Positions 8,021-45,807 of a DNA stretch of 64,000 nt are shown one piece after another (within the stretch, counting starts at the first letter, position 1; each line of letters begins with the position of its first letter). Made by a program: the position numbers and the translations under genes. This DNA is from Cloeon dipterum (lineage: Eukaryota; Arthropoda; Insecta; Ephemeroptera; Baetidae), in NCBI RefSeq assembly GCF_949628265.1, contig NC_088788.1, positions 27,266,335 through 27,330,334 of the forward strand, given 5' to 3'. A model generated the notes under the pieces. It did no database searches, had not been told where the DNA came from, and saw only the letters and a list, made by a program, of their open reading frames with translations.

Positions 8021-11000
8021 GTAAGTAAAGTTTTTAGTTTTATAGACTGTTGGTAAGTTTCAAAAAGATGGTTTCAGAAACGGCTCAACTTATGTCAGAT
8101 AACTAACGTTTCACCATTTGCTAAAACGTTAACCGATTGATCTGATTTGCAGAGGCGAAAATTTTGCTTTACAAATTCCGTTCTTTTCCTACGGAAATAG
8201 TTCAGACGTAGACGGACACAAAAGAGAAGCAAAAAACACGTCTTGGGCAAGAACTGCTAATAGCACACATAAAATTGGCTTTTACCAATTTTACTTAGGC
8301 CACCAAGTCTTGATTTTCCTAATCTTTTGGGAAGAGAGCATCATAGTTTCATAATCTTGGGTGCGCATTTTTTACACCCATTCTTTTTCTAACACCTGCA
8401 CATTACAAAAAGCGAAATCGACGATCCGTATTTCGTCAGAGGCTTGTTCAGAACAATGGTTCGTGCAAGAACAGATTTAAAGTATAATATACATGAAAAG
8501 TCGCTCGCCGCAAGGAGTGTTGCGGCGCATACTCCTGTCAAGAGCAACTACTTTTGTTGTGCTAACTGAGCATTTGAGTGCCTCTCGTTCTTGAATAAGC
8601 GGCAGGCAGGCTGGTGGAAGAGACCTGAAAAATTTCGCCGTCCGATTGAGTGGGCGAGCGAGGGAGGAGTTTGCAAAACTCTCCCAATTCTGCACTGGAG
8701 CGCAGTGTCATGAATGATGTTGCCAGCCTTGAACTAGAAACTGGCCGACCGCCACTCGAAAGTGAAATTATCGATTGCACTCCGAAAACCAGCTTTAGGA
8801 TGTCTCGGTGTCCGCAAGCAATCGGCTCCATTGATATCTCAGCTTGTTAAACGGAATTTTCCATTAACTCAATTGGTGGTTACGCTAATGCACTCGACGG
8901 ATCATGCTAGTTTGTCCCGGGTTGCGAATGCAAACAGAGCGTAGATTAAATGAGATGGTAATTTTTCCACATCCTGTTAACCAAATCTCTTGTGCAAATC
9001 CTGAACTTAGTTCTAGTTGGCACAGGCCGGAAATTGGATGCAAATTTCACTAGCAAGCCCTACCTAGCATTGGAGGCCAAGATTTTTTAAATATCATTAG
9101 GTGCCTGCTAAAACTGGAAAATTTGGCATTCGATTCCATTTAAAATAAAAATTTATATTTTGCATCATAATACGAGTAAGAAGCCACGTGGCTCTTCAAT
9201 CAGGGAAAATATTTTGTCTTGTATATGTTGTGCTGATATCAAAGTAAAAAACACCAGGTAATTTTAACAATAAGATTGCCAGTGACAAAGTGGCCTCGTT
9301 AAAACTGACAAAAGTGTTATAATTAAACAGCATTGTCCGCGCCGCCGTCATTATTCAAATTCAGCGTCACGGCAATTTATCAAAAGAGCCGCCATCCAAA
9401 ATACGGCTTCCGGCGATAGCGGTAAGCAAACTACTACTTTGGTCCGAGTCTGGCAATATTATATTCAGCAGAATCCCGACGCACGGACGTTGCTGGAGGC
9501 TAGAATGATTGATTGCATGGAAAGCCTTATTGTCACCGCGCCAAATTTCGCATCTCTCTTGTCTAGCGGCATAGTGACCAGAACGGCAAGGTAGACAGCG
9601 TTTATTCACAATATCGGGCGCAAGCGCAAGCGTTGGCATCGATTTCGGTCATTCTCGAGGAATTCTCCCAGAGCCCATGTAAACACACTGGCTGGTAAAA
9701 AGCAAAGCCACCCCCAGACTGCTTTTTTTGTAAGAGAAGCAAACACGGCCTTCGAATTTTGGCCTTATTTATTATTTACACGTGGAAATTGAGCAGTAGG
9801 CCCAAAAGTATTTTTAGAAGTTGTTTTTCTTTCGTTTCTTTAAAAACTCGATAACTTTAACAAAGTCACTTTTTAGTTTTTATGTTGTATCAAGGCGACG
9901 GCTTCATGCTCAGACTTAGGTTTTTTTCGTGAGGTTACTTTCCGCCAAATGGACTTCTTTCACATCCGTTGGCGAAACTTTTCTCTCTTCCAATGTCGCC
10001 AAGGTTCTGCGATACAACGGCAAAAAAGTTACGCGAAAAGTTGCCGTGTTGCTGTCGCTGTTTATTCTGTTTGCTGGCAGAAGAAGGACGCTTTGGACTA
10101 ATGTTATTGATCAAGTGGAACACGGGAACGGAGGCATTTTATTCTCTGCCGATCCGCAATAATGAGACACTCGATGAAAAGCTCTTTTGCGATGTTTTGC
10201 TGTCGATTTTATTTCCATCCTGCTTGCTTCCGAGAGTGATTCAGATGGAAAATGTAATAAGGCCTATAGCATTAAATTATTTTTGGAATACTAGAACAAA
10301 AACCAAAACTGACTGAAGGTTTAAACGCAGAGGGCATCATTTTGTTAACAACGACTTCCTCTTCTCTTTGAATTTTATTTAACCAACTAAACACACTCGC
10401 TACTTGCTGGTATGCACCTTTCCAGCATGCGTGATTTGGCTTCACGGGACGAATGTCTAGCGTTTCAATGCAGTCCTCGGTGCGGAGGCAAGTGGCCCTT
10501 CAGTATAGGCTGGGTCCCTGTGCGGCCTGGTGCGTCCATGTTATCCGTTCGCGGTGTTATTGGGACCCCGGTTTCAGCATTCGTGCTAGTGCAGTGCGTG
10601 CCCTTCCCGGTCCTCGGACAGGGATAAAAAGAGCAAAAAAAAAAGATCGACGAAAAATATCATCAACCGTCAGAAATAGCAATGTATGCACTCCGCAAGT
10701 TTTGTCTCGTATAAATTTGTAGTATAAATTCTCGTAGTTAAATTTGCAATTTTCGACTGCATTGAGGTCAAAAGCCTTTTCATTTTTTTAATATTTTCTT
10801 GTTTTCATTCGTAGAAAAACATACAATTGAGTGCGCCACTGAGTCCAAGAGCCAGAAGAAATTGAGACCCTATCATTAGGTTCTGGCGCTGGAAGTTAGC
10901 AATTCGCGCGACTCGTCTCACTCACTCACTCACTCCGCAACACATTCTTTAATCTCATTACGCGGAGAGCACTACTTGCCGGTCTCCCTCGCATTTGCTG

Positions 11001-11325
11001 TGCAAAGCCGCCATAAAAACGGACGGGAATGAATCTGAGTGACTCTTCACATACAGCTGTTGGAGCTCTTTGTAACTTTTTCGCAAATTAATGATAGCCG
11101 GGTGTGCAGCAGCAGGCTCATTTGCCCGTGCTGCCCCAGTTCAAGCTGCTGCCGCTGCTATTAGATTACCCGCTGTACTCCATTTCTCCCGGTGGCGAGG
11201 GGTGCGACCTTTGACCTACACTCTGCGACTGTCGACTCGTGTGTTTGCCCAGTTTTTATAGAGACTGCTGACAAAAAGAACTTTGTGGAAAACAACTCTT
11301 GTTAGCATTATCTATTACAAATCGC
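8021..11325. other. Non-coding stretch
   Basis: Apart from the repeat at 10508-10641 I see no gene. A (CTCA)n-like patch lies near 10915-10935, and GC-richer patches occur at about 8500-8830, 9330-9650 and 10850-11230. These could be regulatory, but there is no direct evidence. Confidence 0.4.
10508..10641 (+). repeat. Short dispersed repeat, copy 2
   Basis: Sense-orientation partner of the copy at 7157-7302, running from GGCTGGGTCCCTG to a run of A after GGGATAAAAAGAGC. The two copies face each other across about 3.2 kb. The open frame through it is a by-product of the repeat. Confidence 0.6.
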
Positions 11326-14280
11326 TGTGGTAGCGACTATTGACTCTAATTACGCTTGGTAGCGAGCGCAGAATGACTGGTAATTACAATACCTCCGCAA
11401 TTTTTACCTCTAATTGCACTTCGCTACCAAAGACATTTTCGCGCGAATTTTGAATTTTTGATCCATTATACACAACATAGCAAAATTTTACATCGTTTTG
11501 ATGATGGGAAGCAAGATTTTTATGCCATCTAGTGTAATCCTTGCAATTATTTCTACCCAATCTGCCCTATAGTGTAGTAGTATAGAGAAATTTCACGACC
11601 AATTAATTTCTTGGACTAAAAAGGCAATACTTCATCCAGAATCATTACTTTTGTTTACAATTAGATAAAAAATAATCTATTTCGTTCCCGACGTTCATGC
11701 ACACTCTGTGCTGAGTTGCAAAATATATAATTATTGAGCCAAAATCTCTTGAACACAGCAAATTGTTGTCGATGGATTTTAATGAAAATTTTGTTGCGTG
11801 AACTTTGCCCTAATTGAACTACAAAACAGTTGAGAAAACTCTGACTTTCCAATTTTTGCGGGTTTTGCGGGCGTTCAAATGTAAAAAAATCTGGGAATTT
11901 TGACTACTTCATAACTTTGCTCAGGGTAGTCATAGAACGAAAATTAAAAAACCGTATAACTCGACTCAACAAGGCAAACAACTTTTATGTTGACCTCAAA
12001 GTGGTAGGTCAAAGGTCAAGGACATAAAATTTGATTTTTTTTTATTTAAACTCAAATTTGAAAATGAATATATTGAAATTTTTTATTTTTTTCGTAGCCA
12101 TTATGTAGAACACAAAAAATTAAGTTTGGAATGTTAAAATTTGGAATGGCACTTTGCCTCATTTTTTAATAAAAAAATGAAAACTTCGAAAAACAAGGTT
12201 TTTCGAGGTTGGAAAAAAACGATGATCAACTAAATCTCGACTTCTAATCATCCGATTTTGAAAAACCACATACCGTTAGACTCGTCTCGACGTCCCCAAG
12301 TGCACTAAAGGGGTATGGAATCTACCAACCCCAACCCCTTTTTTAACCCCCTTAATAACGTGAAATTTAGAATTTTTCGTCCGTTTCAACACCTTAGCAC
12401 GACGTTGACGAGTAATTGTCTTCTTCAAACCAATTCAGATACTTAGTTCACTCAAAGACGAGTCAAATGGAACTTATTTTTTGTAAATAGGACCACCACA
12501 ACCTGAGATTCGGGTGTACAAAGTTTTTTTAATCGAGGCGGATGCAATAGAATGCTTGATGAGCACGAAATCTCGAATTCTGCACTAAATGGGTTGATGG
12601 TTCTGGGAAGCTAGAAGCCAAATATGGATATTTGGGGTCTCCATTTCTGTTGTCAGTGTCTCGGAAGTGGTTAAATTACAATTTTCCGAACAAAAATGGA
12701 TACAAAAATAAACGCGCTTGGGATGGGGTGTGTATTAGGGGTTGAATGGGATAGCACCCTTTAATCCCGAAAGGGATGTCAGGGCATGTTGAGTGGTGTG
12801 CTGTTTATTTTATAATTGCGACGAGATTTTTATTGCAGAATTCGAGATTTGGTGCTCATCAAGCATTTTATTGCATCCATCTCGATAAAAAAAAACTTTG
12901 TGCACCTGAATCTCAGGTTGTGGTGGTTCTATTTACAAAAAATAAGTTTCGTTTGACTCGTCTTTGATGTAACTAAGTAACTGAATTGGTTTGAAGAAGA
13001 CAATTACTCGTCAACGTCGTGCTAAGGTGTTGAAACGGACAAAAATGCTAAATTTCCCGTTATTGAGGGGATTAAAAGGGGGTAGGGGGTTGGTGGGTCC
13101 CATACCCCTTTAGTGCACTTGGGGATGTCAAGACGAGTCTAACGGTATGCGGTTTTTCAAAATCGGATGATTACAAGTCGAGATTTAGTCGATCAACGAT
13201 TTTTAGCAACCTCGAAAAACAAGATTTTTCGAAGTTTTCATTTTTTATTAAAAAATGAGGCAAATTGCCATTCCAAATTTTAACGTTTTTAGCTTCATTT
13301 TTTGTGCTCTACAAAATGGCTATGAAAAAAATAAAAAATTTCAATATATTCATTTTCAAATTTGAGTTTAAATTCAAAAAATTAATTTTTATGACCTTGA
13401 CCTTTGACCTACCACTTTGAGGTCAATGTAAAAGTTGTTTGCCTTGTTGAGACAAGCTTACAGGTTTTTAAATTTTTGTTCTAGAACCACCCTGAGCAAA
13501 GTTATGAAGTGCTCAAAATTCCCATATTTTGACATTTGAAGGCCCGTAAAACCCGCAAATTTTGGAAAGCCATTTTGTCGATCATACTGAGCCCTCCATA
13601 ATTGAAAATTTTTGAATGAAACAATTAGAAAAATATGAAAGAATGGAAAATAATTTTAACGCACTAATTAGGAACATATAATATATAAAATCGAAAAAAT
13701 ACTTCCTTGGAATGTTTTGAAAACTGAAATATTTTTTTCTGAGCATAAATACATATAGTGTGGACTCAGTTAAGTGTTCAGGTATTTTTTTTTGTGACTC
13801 AAGAAGAGCTGTTTTGGTAAGTCTTTTAATGAACGAAATTTTGGCAAATGCGTCGTCACTTATCGAACCTGAGGGCTTGATAATTCACCATCACAGTAGG
13901 TCCTTTATCCCTCAAATAATATTCCACGACATTATTGTTCATTACAACTAAAATTCGTGCGTGGAAGTCTACATTATTACGCGGTAACGAATTAAAAAAT
14001 AAAGCTGCCACAGATGTTGCCATGTTTGAGTGAGAATAGGCAACAGAAACGGGCCAATAGATAATCGGTAAGACACATGAAAATAACCGGATGATAATGT
14101 AGATTCATAATACCAAATATTATTTGTCCAACTTAAAGAGGATATTAATAAACCGGTTTTTTGTTGCTCCTGTAAAATCGATTTCTGTGCAGTTAGAGGT
14201 AAAAATTGCGGAGGTATTGTAATTACCAGTCATTCTGCGCTCGCTACCAAGCGTAATTAGAGTCAATAGTCGCTACCACA
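11326..14280. mobile_element. Inverted-repeat (foldback-like) element of about 2.95 kb
   Basis: The ends are 94-base inverted repeats: 11326-11419 pairs with 14187-14280 almost base for base, starting TGTGGTAGCGACTATTGACT. Between them lies a very long imperfect palindrome (separate entry). No open reading frame of transposase length is present, so this looks non-autonomous. The terminal repeats contain the motif GGTAGCGA twice on the left, a possible subterminal binding repeat. I found no clean target-site duplication at the outer edges. Either the real boundary lies elsewhere or the element is old. Confidence 0.8.
11840..13575. repeat. Long imperfect palindrome (arms about 735-745 bases)
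   Basis: The left arm, about 11840-12584, is the inverted copy of the right arm, about 12834-13575, around a 249-base loop. Matching landmarks: TTTGCGGGTTTT at the outer edges, GACCTCAAAGTGG, GGTCAAAGGTCAAGG, a stretch reading CCCAAGTGCACTAAAGGGGTATGG, GACGACGTTGACGAGTAAT-type sequence, and TCTCGAATTCTGCA at the inner edges. Pairing is continuous with scattered mismatches and small gaps. A transcript across it would fold into a long double-stranded hairpin. No protein-coding signal was seen in either arm. Confidence 0.85.
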
Positions 14281-17200
14281 ACGAAATTACTATTTACATT
14301 TCGTCCTCTCCTAAGTGAGAGCAGAACAAACAAGAGTGTCCAACCGCGACCATGATAAGCGCTGATTAAAATGGCAAGGTGTTAACTTAAAACATACAAG
14401 AGCCAATCGATGTTTAATGAAGCTCTTCTAGTGCATACTGATTTAAATTTAATTACATTTTGGTATTACCCTATTTAAGAGAGCTATTGTGCAAAGAACG
14501 ACTATCAGAAATTGACAGCATACACTGCTTAGCTATCAGAAAAATAGAAAGACTATGTACAAATATTATCAATTTTTCGACGCTTTTTATTGGTTATTTA
14601 TACCTCAGAGGTCATAACAAGTCTGAAATCCGTAGGGTTTAATACAAGCAGTAAAATGGTGAGTAACAACTAAATTGCTGGAAACAAAAAGATGACGGGA
14701 AGCAACTTTTTACTCGTAATCCTTTTCTTTTTTCACGAGCCGTTATCTATATGTTACGCTGCAACTGGGGTCATGTTTGCGGCTTTGCCAGGCGCCGCGA
14801 GAAAACAGCAGCTAACAATGAGGTCTCATGTTCTGTTTCGGCCAAGCTAAATGATTCTGAGTTTCAGTGCATGTGCTGTGCATACTACTGTCCCGCACTG
14901 ACTGAGTAAAACTATACATACATAAAATTCACTTGCGTTCTACTTGGCTACTAAAATATTTTGACTAAGAATGAATCCCAAAGGATATATATACAGTATA
15001 TATATATATTTAGTTGCTTGACTGATAGATTTACAAAATAAATCCTAAAAGTGTGTATTCACAACAAATTTTCTTAATCAATTTCATTTTGGGACTTTCA
15101 AAACAAATTTTATCGGATCACTTTTTTAACGGAGTCACATTGACCAAACAAATAGTAAATAAAATTTAAGTAAAAACAGGATAATCAGAAAACTTCGTTC
15201 AAAATAACATCCAAACTCAAGAAGAGTGCGCCTGCTCTAATACTTATGTAACGAGGATGTTTCAACAAGGTGTTAGTAGAATAACGGAAGTACTTCTCTT
15301 TCTTCATGGCCCATAGTAGAGTAATCCGAAAATATCATGCTTTGTAATTAATGTTGCCACGCAGAGTAATGTAGAATAAACAGTCCGTATCAACCAACCA
15401 GAGTGATCAGTCACTTCCAACTTTTACCCTCCAAGCGGCAATTGGCCGCACGGCCAGTTTTGTCCATAGGTGATTTTAATGCTTCCTTATTTTATTTTTA
15501 TTTTACTTACATATTCTATTCCAAATTGGTATCAAATTGTCGCACGTTTTCCCCGGTTAAAATTTATTAATTTGTTATCAGCTTGAACACGTACGAAAGT
15601 AATTTTTGCCACAACCATGACCATTTCCTTTTATGGTTTATCCCATACATTGAAACTTGAAAAACTTGAAATAGATAGAAGTACTTTACACAGAGATTTT
15701 ACTACGGCTACTCATTTAGGCAAACAAATAAGGAATGAGTGGCTCAGATTAAATTAATGGCAAAAAGTACAAAATTAAATCACCTAGTACGACTTTATTT
15801 TTCATTTCATACGGCTTTAAATTATATATACTGACAGATACAGGACTTGATTCCTAAACGTAACACAAGTTGTACGGATTTCGAGCAGTTGAAAGCTCAA
15901 AATTTAATTTAAGTCGCTTTTAAAAGACATCTATAACCTTCGCCAACATCAAAACTCTTACCCTTTTTATTTAAATAAAGGTTGTCAACCTTCATGTCTG
16001 TATGTCCAATAAGATTGGGCATTAAGTCAAGTAGCCAGTTTATCCTTTTTAAGTGCTGCGTGCGTCTTGCCAGTAAAGCTGAAACAAGCATAACTTTTTG
16101 CACGCTCCCAATCTGCCTTTAGGCCTTAATTTGAAAAGCAGCTTTTTATCGTCCCATCAACATGCTCACTCATTTTAATATGGCAAAAATCACGCTACAT
16201 TTATCAGAATTTGATTCCCACTTGATTTAAAAAAATTCTACCGTGTTATGGTTGATATGGCCTGTAGAAGTAAAGTATGATTCGCTCAAGTACAAATTTA
16301 CAACAAAATTCTGAGCACCGCTGGAATATGAAGCAATCGTGCGACGGCAGATAATCATCCGACGTAACAAGTGAAGCCATTTCAATATTCCGGCATCAAG
16401 TGCGTTGTATTGTTTGTCAAGGCCGATTCTCTTGTTGGAACACACAACTGCATAAGTGCAGTGACACGTCCCTTGAAAATTAGTTGTGACGTCGTGAAAA
16501 TTCACCACTTGTTCTAGTAAAAAATGATTTAGGAATGGCGAAATCATTAATATATAAAATTATCATAACGTATCCACTTGAATCCTGGCCGCTTACTTTT
16601 TAATATATATGCAGGAGGGAAAATCCAAACTTTTGCCAGTCTGACGTGAGGCAACCTAAGTTACATAATTTTATGGAGTGAGTTGGGGAAAACTTTCTAA
16701 ATACTCAGATTCAAATTTCAAAGGCAATGACTTTTCCTGTTGAAACTGATTGAAATCTGAACACGTCTATCACATTTTCTCCAAAAAATTATACCTATAT
16801 TTTAATTTAGTACATCCCCTTTGTTCTAATTATTTAATTTGGAATAGTCCAATTGAAATAAAACAATGTGATTTTTGCTGCTATCTTGTTAGGGGCTCTA
16901 TATACGGGTAAAATCATATTCGCCATTGGTCTAAATAAAATTTAAGCCAGCTGTAGCTAGCATTTCTATTGACTGTAGAGGCTATAACTCTAATCATCAA
17001 ACCCCAATCTAACGCTCTGGCATTTTTGTCAATGATTTGTAAGTGATAAGCACATTTATCTATTCTATTATATAACTAAATTCAATCAAATTGGATAAAA
17101 ATAAGGTCTGTTCTTCTTAATCATGCCTGACATAATTTAGTTATATTATATTATGTAACATTGGATGAATCCGTCGTTTTCATTTAATTCCATGCCGTGC

Positions 17201-23169: not shown

Positions 23170-26100
23170 CGCGGTGCCCTTGGCCAATCCGCCCGATGTT
23201 GACGACCCAGCCAGCACCAAGGCACGACCGCCTGCACCGCTGAGCGTGCCCCATGTGGCGTCCTCGCCCTCGATGCACCCTAACAGCAAGCGTGCCACTT
23301 GGCGGGACGATACCTTTGACGATGATGACGCCCCGGCGTCGGCGCCCAACAAAGGCGGCAGCAGCAGCAGCTCGTCCACCAGCAGCTCGCTGGATGAAAC
23401 CTCGGCACCGCCTGATGGCGGATGGGGGTGAGCACTGGACAAAAATATCTTTTGCATCCGCGTCCGCACCTTGCGCAAATAGACGTCCTCTAATTCCTAG
23501 CCTGCGTCTATTTTTTATTTAATGAAGTTGTTTCATAGTTTTAATTTCCTCATGAATAAGTAATTTTGGCAAAAATTCAAGTTGTCGACTTGCACCATAG
23601 AAAAAACCCCTTTTTTAATTTTCAGATGGGTTGTTGTTTTCGCCGCCTTCATGGTCAATCTCATCGCCGACGGCATCACCTTCTCCTTCGGCATCATCTA
23701 CGTGGAGTTCCTCGAGAAGTTCGAGGCTGGCAAAGGAGCAACGATGTGGATCGGCTCGCTGTTCATGGCGATGCCACTGCTGTGCGGCCCAATAGCTTCG
23801 TACACCACCGACCGCTATGGTTGCCGGAAGGTGACCATAATCGGCTCGTTGCTGGCCGCCAGCGGCTTCATCCTCAGCGCTCACCCCAGCTCCATGCTCG
23901 TGCTGCTTGCCACCTTCGGCCTGGCCGGCTTTGGCCTGGCCCTTTGCTACGTAGCGGCTGTTGTCATCGTCGCCTACTGGTTCGAGAGCAAGCGCTCCCT
24001 CGCCACCGGCATCTCGCAATGTGGGAGCGGAATCGGCACTTTCATATTCGCCCCGCTCACACAATTTCTTCTATCAACGTGAGTATTAAAAATAATTGAG
24101 TAACACAAGAAGTAGAATTATAGGGTGAAATATAATAGATATCCTATTAATAATTAAAACACGCTCATAGATAAATCATTTATTTTTCCAAAGTTGTCTC
24201 TGCTCTTCAAAGTTTTTAAACCATTTTACCTATTGTTTGTGACCAGTTTTTATAAAAAATATTAACTTTCCTCGTGTCTCTTAGGTATGGATGGCAGGGA
24301 ACATCTCTCATCCTTGCAGGCTGCTTCCTCAATCTTGCTGTCTGTGGTGCCCTAATGCGCGACGTGCGCCCAACGAGTCGCCAACGAAAACGTTATTCCA
24401 GTGAATCCGAGAAAACTGCGCCGACATCGACTGACCTTCCAAATCCTGACGAGCTGCGGAAATTGCTGGAAAACGGTGGCGAAGAGGCGAACCGGCTCTG
24501 CAGCTCCCTGGTGGCGCTTCCAACCTTCGTCAAGAGCGGCGAAAGGGTGCCGCTGGAGGCGTTGCAGCGATTGGCCGCCCAGAGGCCCATGTACGATGTG
24601 CTTGTGCAAAACTATCCTGGCCTCCTGATGTCGCACAGCCTAAGCGCTGGGGGCAGCAAAGAAGAAACCGCCCTCACCATTCCAGAAAACCAACTGGCGC
24701 CTCCACCGGCTCTGCAGCAGCCCAGAAAGCTCCACTCGGCCTTCCTTAAGGATCTCAGAGTTCACAGGTTGATTTTGACGCTCTTTTTATTCACTTAGCC
24801 TTTTGTGATTTTTGTTGCCATGTGTTAAGATTTAAAAAATCTTTTGCGCATTGTTTAAAGTGCATATTGATAGTTTTAAGTGCATTGGAAATGATGTGAT
24901 AAGATCAGTCATCAGACATATTTTTGCTCCTTTCCCTACAAAATTTTTAATCAATTTCAAAATTCCAGGCATTCTTTAACATACCGCGGTGCAATGCTTA
25001 ATATCAACCGGTACCGCCTGCGAGCCTCGTCTTGCCCAGACATCTACCGCAACTCAATGACAACAATAGACGAGGACAAAGATACAGTAAGCTGCGTATC
25101 ATTTAAAAGTTAACTTATTGAGCTAACAAGAAATTTTATTTTCCAGTGGTACTCAGGCCTGGCGGGAGTCAAAAGTGTGGTGCTGGACATGCTGGACTTT
25201 TCATACTTCACCGACCTTCGCTTTACGCTCTTCACAATTTCGAACTTTCTGCTGTACTTGTGGTATGATGTGCCTTATGTCTGCCTAGCCGACTACGCCA
25301 AAGAGCTGGGCTTTACTGAAGACAAAGCTTCAATGCTAATCAGCGTCATCGGTCTGTTAAACATGGTTGGAGAGGTGGGCCACTCATTGCTTTCACGCTG
25401 CGTGCTTACTGACGCCGGAACCCTTTTTCAGATTGTGCTTGGCTGGATAGGTGACAAAACTTGGATAAGTGCAAACCACGTCTATGCAGTTTGCATGGTT
25501 ATCTGCGGAGGGGCGACCGCGCTGATCCCATTGTTCACCGATTACACCATCATTGCTGGCGTCGCTGGTGTTTTTGGCCTTTTTATCGGTGCCAATTATT
25601 CGTTGACTTCAATTATTGTGGTGGAGCTGATCACGTTAGACAAGTTCACGAACGGCTACGGGCTTCTGTTGCTTGTTCAAGGCATTGCAAACCTTGTTGG
25701 CCCTCCACTAGCAGGTTAGTCAAAAATGTTCTTTCTTGTATTTTTCGCAAAAACCCGCATTTTACCCAGAAAACCCCACTCTGTTGTAAAAAACTGTTTT
25801 TCGCGGGTTTTTCAATTCTGCATTTTTCCAAAACAACAATCTATTCTAGTTTCTCTGATTTCATAAAATATTTTATTTGTAATTTTTCTCTCTGCCTTGT
25901 TTGTCACAAAATTTAATCTACTAGGGGTCAAATTTGATAAACTCAGAAAAATGCAGAAACCCCTAAATGGATGGAATTTTCAACTCTTTTTCTGCAAAAA
26001 AAATTTTTTGGGCATTGTTAAATTGGTGAACTCTTGTTATGATCACTCTTTTCTTTCAAAGTATAACACAATCTAAAATCATTAGTTTAAATTTAGAAAG

Positions 26101-44923: not shown

Positions 44924-45807
44924 TCACTTGTCACAATCCTCTGAAGATGAATTGTCTCTGTCCTCCTCTGCTGAAGCATCGCCATCCTCTTCTTCTGAAC
45001 AGCTCTCAATATCATCTTCTTCCTCAGAATCACTTTCAATGTCCAGCACACGATTTTGGTTAACAAAAATGTCATTGGAGTCTTGTACTTTTGTCACCAC
45101 AGCGTCAGCAAACTCTTCAGGCCACACACCGTCTTTGCTTAGCTGGTTGATATGGTCCTTGTAAAGGATTCTGGAAATTTCTCCTTTTACCTTCACCCCT
45201 TCTTCGATGTGCTCGACGATAACATAGTCGCCTCGCTTAACCCACACCGTCCGTCTGAACTTTGTCGGCATTGATGCCAAGTACTTCTCACCCTTTGCAG
45301 TGGCAACCTGCAACAAAAAGATAGGATTAAATCAAATTAGTAGATACACATATGTATAAGGGATGCATATTTATCATTTAGATATCATACTACGTAATTA
45401 ATATAATATAAATAATACATATAGTTGATTAAAATAACATAGATACATATTATCTCAAATTAAGAGCTAAGGAAAAGTCAGTTTTCGCCGCCCCTACTTT
45501 AACATGGGATTCTCATAAGAACTGGCGAGATGCGTAACCCGGCAGAAACTGTAACTTTACCATAAGATCATTGAAATAGCAAAAAGGACGACGTCGTCTT
45601 ATAATATGTACTTATATTAAAAAAAAAATTATTATGTATGATATTATGCGATTATTCAAAATTGACTGAAAAACAAGAAAAACATACCTCATGAAGATTG
45701 TTTCCTCTGCACCCAAGCACCTTAACGACCTCATGGTTAGGTGCGACTTCTACGTTACAGTCTTCCACCTCCTGGTAAACGTACTTCTTCTTCGTCATTT
45801 TGGACAT
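44924..45807 (-). CDS. EIF1AD: eIF1A domain-containing protein
   Basis: Two minus-strand exons, 45807-45688 and 45307-44924, give 167 residues, close to the vertebrate 165. The eIF1A-type S1/OB fold is seen as YVYQEVEDCNV, VVKVLGCRGNNLHEV (the GNN RNA-binding loop), MPTKFRRTVWVKRGDYVIV and VKGEISRILYKDHI; the tail is almost entirely Ser, Glu and Asp. EIF1AD is a nuclear protein related to the initiation factor eIF1A; its precise role is poorly known. A MITE-like repeat lies in the intron. The start is chosen at the first ATG of the open frame, MSKMTKKKY. The gene is head to head with PPIH, 514 bases apart. Confidence 0.95.
45477..45566. mobile_element. MITE-like short element, copy 2
   Basis: Direct-orientation partner of 43466-43575, lying in the single intron of EIF1AD (45308-45687). 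Both copies end GTAACTTTACCATAA. Confidence 0.65.

Follow-up and report, generated by a model that had tools for sequence, protein, structure and literature searches.

A nested foldback element inside a probable non-autonomous DNA transposon of the mayfly Cloeon dipterum

Two levels of inverted symmetry at the locus

We analysed a 64,000-nucleotide stretch of the Cloeon dipterum genome (RefSeq assembly GCF_949628265.1, contig NC_088788.1, positions 27,266,335 to 27,330,334 of the forward strand; hereafter the window), which contains a 2,961-bp element with terminal inverted repeats and, inside these, a long palindrome. With a probability of roughly 0.86, we read this element, referred to below as the composite, as a non-autonomous DNA transposon that carries a nested foldback passenger and is moved in trans by the candidate transposase of a relative. 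Its parts, in window coordinates, are as follows.

11319..11322, no strand: left target-site duplication AAAT, equal to 14284..14287
11323..14283, no strand: the composite in full, 2,961 bp, with ends CGCTGTGGTAGCG...CGCTACCACAACG; at least 10 collinear copies
11323..11419, plus strand: left outer terminal inverted repeat, 98% against the right repeat
11323..11735, no strand: left part of the outer, putatively non-autonomous transposon; first ~226 bp 77% like one end of a 4.95-kb relative
11736..11841, plus strand: surviving outer end of the putative foldback cargo, GAGCCAAAATC..., without right-hand partner; placed by comparison with independent foldback ends
11842..12589, plus strand: left palindrome (foldback) arm, from self-comparison and genome matches
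12590..12828, no strand: loop between the arms, 239 nt
12829..13572, minus strand: right palindrome arm, from self-comparison and genome matches
13284..13383, minus strand: conversion-like block in the right arm, common to the window copy and its twin on contig C5; 12 of 14 private differences match the opposite arm, polarity not established
13573..14283, no strand: outer transposon, right part; its final ~207 bp are 76% like the other end of the 4.95-kb relative
14187..14283, minus strand: right outer terminal inverted repeat, partner of 11323..11419
14284..14287, no strand: right target-site duplication AAAT, equal to 11319..11322

Self-comparison paired the outer repeats over 98 nt at 98% complementarity (11322-11419 with 14187-14284), of which ~97 bp lie within the exact element ends; these ends read CG[C/T]TGTGGTAGCG. 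The palindrome was detected as six chained ungapped arm pairs, 84–94% alike each, and a gapped alignment of the arms gave identity at 663 of 736 positions (90%). The top self-inverted BLAST score in 10500-15000 was 959 bits, against a maximum of 39 in 100 dinucleotide-block shuffles. The inverted-repeat symmetry is genuine at both levels.

An initial annotation of the window had described terminal repeats of 94 bases, arms of ~740 bases around a 249-base loop, a palindrome not concentric with the terminal repeats, and no transposase frame. This anatomy is borne out: the repeats measure ~97 bp and are 98% complementary, the arms (11842-12589 and 12829-13572, gap 239 nt) agree to within a few bases, and the palindrome lies off-centre, 519 bp separating the left element end from the left arm and 711 bp the right arm from the right end. 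The open reading frame listing holds no stop-to-stop frame of at least 110 aa inside 11323-14283, and Rfam gave no match at gathering threshold across the whole 64-kb window.

Dispersed copies with target-site duplications

A whole-genome search for further copies and flanking duplications, proposed as a check in the initial annotation, returned nine near-full-length matches (95–100%) and a tenth copy in two pieces, dispersed through the genome and nine of them with target-site duplications. Dispersed copies are one of the two signs by which the initial annotation would have it an ordinary foldback transposon. The count is a lower bound (at least 10), 40 of 716 candidates having been scored; the matched loci L009–L038 entered the analysis by their match coordinates. 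All ten copies are collinear and carry the same off-centre palindrome, and they differ pairwise by 0.07% to 4.22%; between the window copy and the C5 copy, which lie on different chromosomes, 2 of 2,961 sites differ. Because the ten copies are collinear and only 0.07–4.2% apart, we conclude that the composite transposes as a single unit and is a mobile family with recent genomic spread. Fragments of it are present too, for example at C1:37075998, C5:11465201 and C4:12505379. The copy in two pieces, L046 (C4:14622478-14627391), was split later by another transposon, an insertion of 1,956 bp whose ends read GGAAGGATCTAAATCA....

The locus had been thought to lack a clean target-site duplication, wrongly, as exact AAAT stands on both sides. 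Exact 4-bp duplications flank nine of the ten copies inspected (AAAT in four, ATTT in two, and AACT, ACTT and AATT in one each), all of the form A..T and of constant length. Duplications of 4 bp also flank the 4.95-kb relative, L059 (ATAT), and all three copies fetched from a sibling family of ~1.2 kb (AATT, ATTT, AAAT). It is thus the outer ends that work in transposition.

Assemblies are known to be at risk from long inverted repeats, and foldback read artefacts have reportedly been described (PMC12870357), so that the structure might have arisen in assembly or by a long read folding back on itself. The same structure, however, stands at ten places with differing flanks and 4-bp duplications, and its arms are only 90% identical, whereas a self-folding read would yield near-identical arms. 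We reject the artefact, whose probability is practically negligible.

A separate foldback family supplies the palindrome

Away from the outer element, many loci match the palindrome arms, and there ends reading GAGCCAYATTC... face each other. A 26-bp pattern for these ends has 84 exact matches genome-wide, 42 per strand, and the reversed pattern none; when up to 3 mismatches were allowed the numbers were 137 and 2. Nine of the 12 loci read are two-ended copies, with ends 1.9–3.6 kb apart. An exact 4-bp duplication flanks five of the nine, of which one lies in an AT microsatellite, and three have duplications with one mismatch, two of these three being a duplicated locus with shared flanks. In one of the nine (L039, C3:13652864-13655166) the flanks are mutual reverse complements, so that the symmetry extends past the element, through either an inverted duplication or insertion into a palindrome. 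Copies L041 and L042 (C5:31954644 and C5:31963058), 8.4 kb apart, carry identical flanks and therefore represent a segmental duplication, not two insertions.

The foldback arms hold tandem modules of ~337 bp (period 336–338 bp, 2.1–5.8 copies per array in L043 and L058). Arm pairs within independent copies are 93.7–98.3% alike (eight copies with a long pair listed), as against ~90% in the window element. The transposase of this family was not found: no foldback ends, among the ends listed, lie beside the four transposase-like loci described below, and the one-ended foldback loci L065 and L066 contain no transposase recognisable by eye. A 291-aa frame of L066 resembles, by eye, the end of a reverse transcriptase.

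Within the composite the left end of the foldback is recognisable (GAGCC at 11736), and the matching ~106 bp on the right are missing. The initial annotation had offered a foldback transposon as an alternative and had suspected that one symmetry was inserted in the other; both suggestions gain support, the palindrome being a member of a separate foldback family that is truncated and lies within an outer transposon. One could still take the 2.96-kb unit in its entirety for a single foldback transposon that its own transposase recognises, as both levels of symmetry travel together in all ten copies. Yet the inner arms are found at sites outside the outer element, bounded by ends and 4-bp duplications of their own, and some outer-type elements lack the composite's palindrome; since the inner repeat has lost its right end, the two levels do not form one designed symmetry. 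We consider a single foldback element very unlikely and reject it, inner and outer parts having been found apart.

Relatives of the outer element and a candidate transposase

A search with the outer-end pattern gave 16 end pairs at a spacing of ~1.2 kb, which make up the sibling family, and a single wider pair, at 4.9 kb, which is L059 (C2:11772478-11777422, 4,945 bp). The 97-bp terminal repeats of L059 are 98% complementary, and its ends are 76–82% like those of the composite over 97–228 bp. On its minus strand it holds several open frames that look like exons; a catalytic-looking piece among them has a match to Pfam DUF7869 (31.7 bits, cut-off 26; E 1.4e-7). Matches of neighbouring pieces to SGS (0.002) and ECM10 (0.043) were both under the cut-offs and were dismissed. 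Among solved structures the DUF7869 piece had no match at E up to 1.

Protein of the L059 type occurs at four genome loci, L059 itself and three at 28–31% identity (L062, C2:11809827; L063, C2:36315843; L064, C2:36437450, whose match has one internal TAA stop), and a genome search with the Pfam DUF7869 family gave two loci. The motif layout of the L059 piece recalls Sola transposases, to which we take DUF7869 to be linked; the protein is probably a Sola-type transposase. L059, with ends like those of the non-autonomous composite and a 4-bp duplication, is a relative that bears a candidate transposase. No recognisable transposase was seen in the one-ended outer relatives L049 and L060.

The 16 sibling copies are 97–100% alike. 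The foldback module has a distant relative in their middle 0.6 kb, where the best match is 69% over 113 bp (64 bits; maximum of 200 shuffles 32.6); this middle part had no match to the reversed foldback among the 40 best rows, and none to the interior of the 4.95-kb relative (25 bits). A 606-bp relative, L050, is palindromic over its entire length. The 4.95-kb relative is not palindromic, its inverted repeat making up 7% of the length. With related foldback modules in two multi-copy families and a third, tiny one palindromic throughout, one might suppose that the lineage acquires such modules repeatedly, a long internal hairpin being of advantage to an element without transposase, for example by bringing the two ends together or through double-stranded RNA that alters silencing. 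We think this unlikely: L049 and L060 have no internal inverted repeat, which weakens a general rule of uptake, and chance capture from an abundant repeat may explain the modules instead. The ~355-bp module of the sibling family also stands head to tail elsewhere, for example at C1:36745974-36747018 and C5:2185138-2185826; with 948 candidate places, 40 of them scored, it resembles a satellite seeded by a foldback element.

Divergence and base pairing of the arms

Among the ten copies, variant alleles number 91 in 744 sites of the right arm and 48 in 744 of the left, with 18 in 408 and 39 in 712 in the outer parts. The right-arm excess comes mostly from clustered differences, as in the block at 13284..13383. 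In another copy, L008, 22 of 30 private differences fall within 128 bp, and only one of the 22 matches the opposite arm. The simplest reading of these clusters would be gene conversion, between the arms or with other foldback copies, in a direction not established. Changes at paired arm positions number 135, of which 69 break a Watson–Crick pair, 23 lead to G-U and 37 create a pair. Because 69 of the 135 break a pair, we see no sign of selection for pairing.

These counts bear on the suggestion in the initial annotation that the palindrome has the architecture of an insect hairpin-RNA locus, that is, a dedicated locus whose transcript is cut by Dicer-2 into small RNAs that silence a target. 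The RNA of 12150-13270 is indeed predicted to fold as a single long hairpin (−726.9 kcal/mol, a figure without shuffle background), two genome loci have a Dicer_dimer domain, and fly hairpin-RNA loci may include transposon inverted repeats, as in the case of hp-ODox2 with BS2/Jockey (PMC10317233). However, the structure belongs to a mobile family whose copies lie dispersed, nine of ten with target-site duplications, and is not a single locus associated with a target gene; of the 135 changes at paired positions, 69 break the pair and 23 give G-U. The arm matches that were listed and inspected all belong to the composite or to foldback copies, whether paired or fragmentary, with no host target seen among them and no gene-by-gene target search made. 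Nothing sets the composite apart from an ordinary transposon able to fold. A dedicated hairpin-RNA gene is therefore not supported; being a mobile family, the structure led us to set this reading aside as highly improbable, while small RNAs from any transcript of the composite are possible given the two Dicer_dimer loci.

Likeness to described elements

In architecture the foldback family resembles Tetris/DAIBAM of Drosophila virilis (PMC4079207), which has long inverted repeats built with tandem modules (~220 bp, compared with ~337 bp here), lacks a transposase of its own and has its ends in common with a smaller element. Tetris differs in its target-site duplications of 8–10 bp, as against 4 bp here, and in that the foldback is here cargo inside another transposon. 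Galileo, of the P superfamily, likewise has long inverted repeats that vary and contain tandem repeats, and differs in duplications of 7–8 bp with the consensus GTATTAC (PMC4168063). The 7–10-bp duplications of Galileo and Tetris were not found in the inner foldback family, where they are 4 bp.

The long RNA hairpin that the inverted repeat could form is a feature shared with the hairpin-RNA loci of Drosophila, from which the composite differs in being a mobile repeat family.

For the outer element the nearest likeness is to the Sola superfamily. Sola1 and Sola2 make 4-bp target-site duplications, the length found here, and the 4.95-kb relative encodes a DUF7869 transposase candidate. Sola ends start with G, whereas the outer ends here start with CG and the foldback ends with GAGCC.

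Elsewhere in the window lie pieces of host genes, for a major-facilitator transporter (23564-25719, plus strand) and an eIF-1A-like protein (44924-45331, minus strand).

Proposed order of insertion and spread

We propose that an older outer element of ~1.1 kb, without transposase, received a foldback insertion, that the nested foldback then lost its right ~106 bp, and that the pair later spread together. A palindrome-poor outer relative (C1:24568591-24569563) fits this order: the points corresponding to 11714 and 13606, which 1,891 bp separate in the window element, lie there within 208 bp of each other, as expected of an outer element without the palindrome. Transposase from a relative such as the 4.95-kb L059 would bind the outer ends in trans, moving the outer element and its cargo together. 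Because its right ~106 bp are lost, the foldback is probably immobile by itself, unable to leave alone and carried as passive cargo; the ~740-bp hairpin, if transcribed, would be a by-product of foldback origin.

Several points weigh against this account. The C1 relative is placed by match coordinates, and the duplication made by the foldback insertion itself is not visible, since the foldback right end is gone. One copy of the composite, L054, has degraded ends and no duplication. The ends of L059 are only ~82% like those of the composite, so that a closer source of transposase may be absent from the assembly or lost, and the next transposase-like proteins are 28–31% identical to that of L059. 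We nevertheless regard the sequence of insertion, loss of one end and joint spread as well supported, short of base-by-base proof.

Implications

The composite is a new family of non-autonomous DNA transposon and mostly ordinary transposon biology. None of its parts is new in kind; what is noteworthy is that they are combined, and apparently more than once in the lineage. It is a clear example of one mobile element locked in another and spreading jointly with it in near-identical copies, with a candidate source of the enzyme found alongside. The lineage also offers a natural comparison of carriers, with the palindrome, with a distant module, as a tiny palindrome and with a transposase, which could be used to ask whether long hairpins aid or impede transposition, or feed small-RNA silencing.
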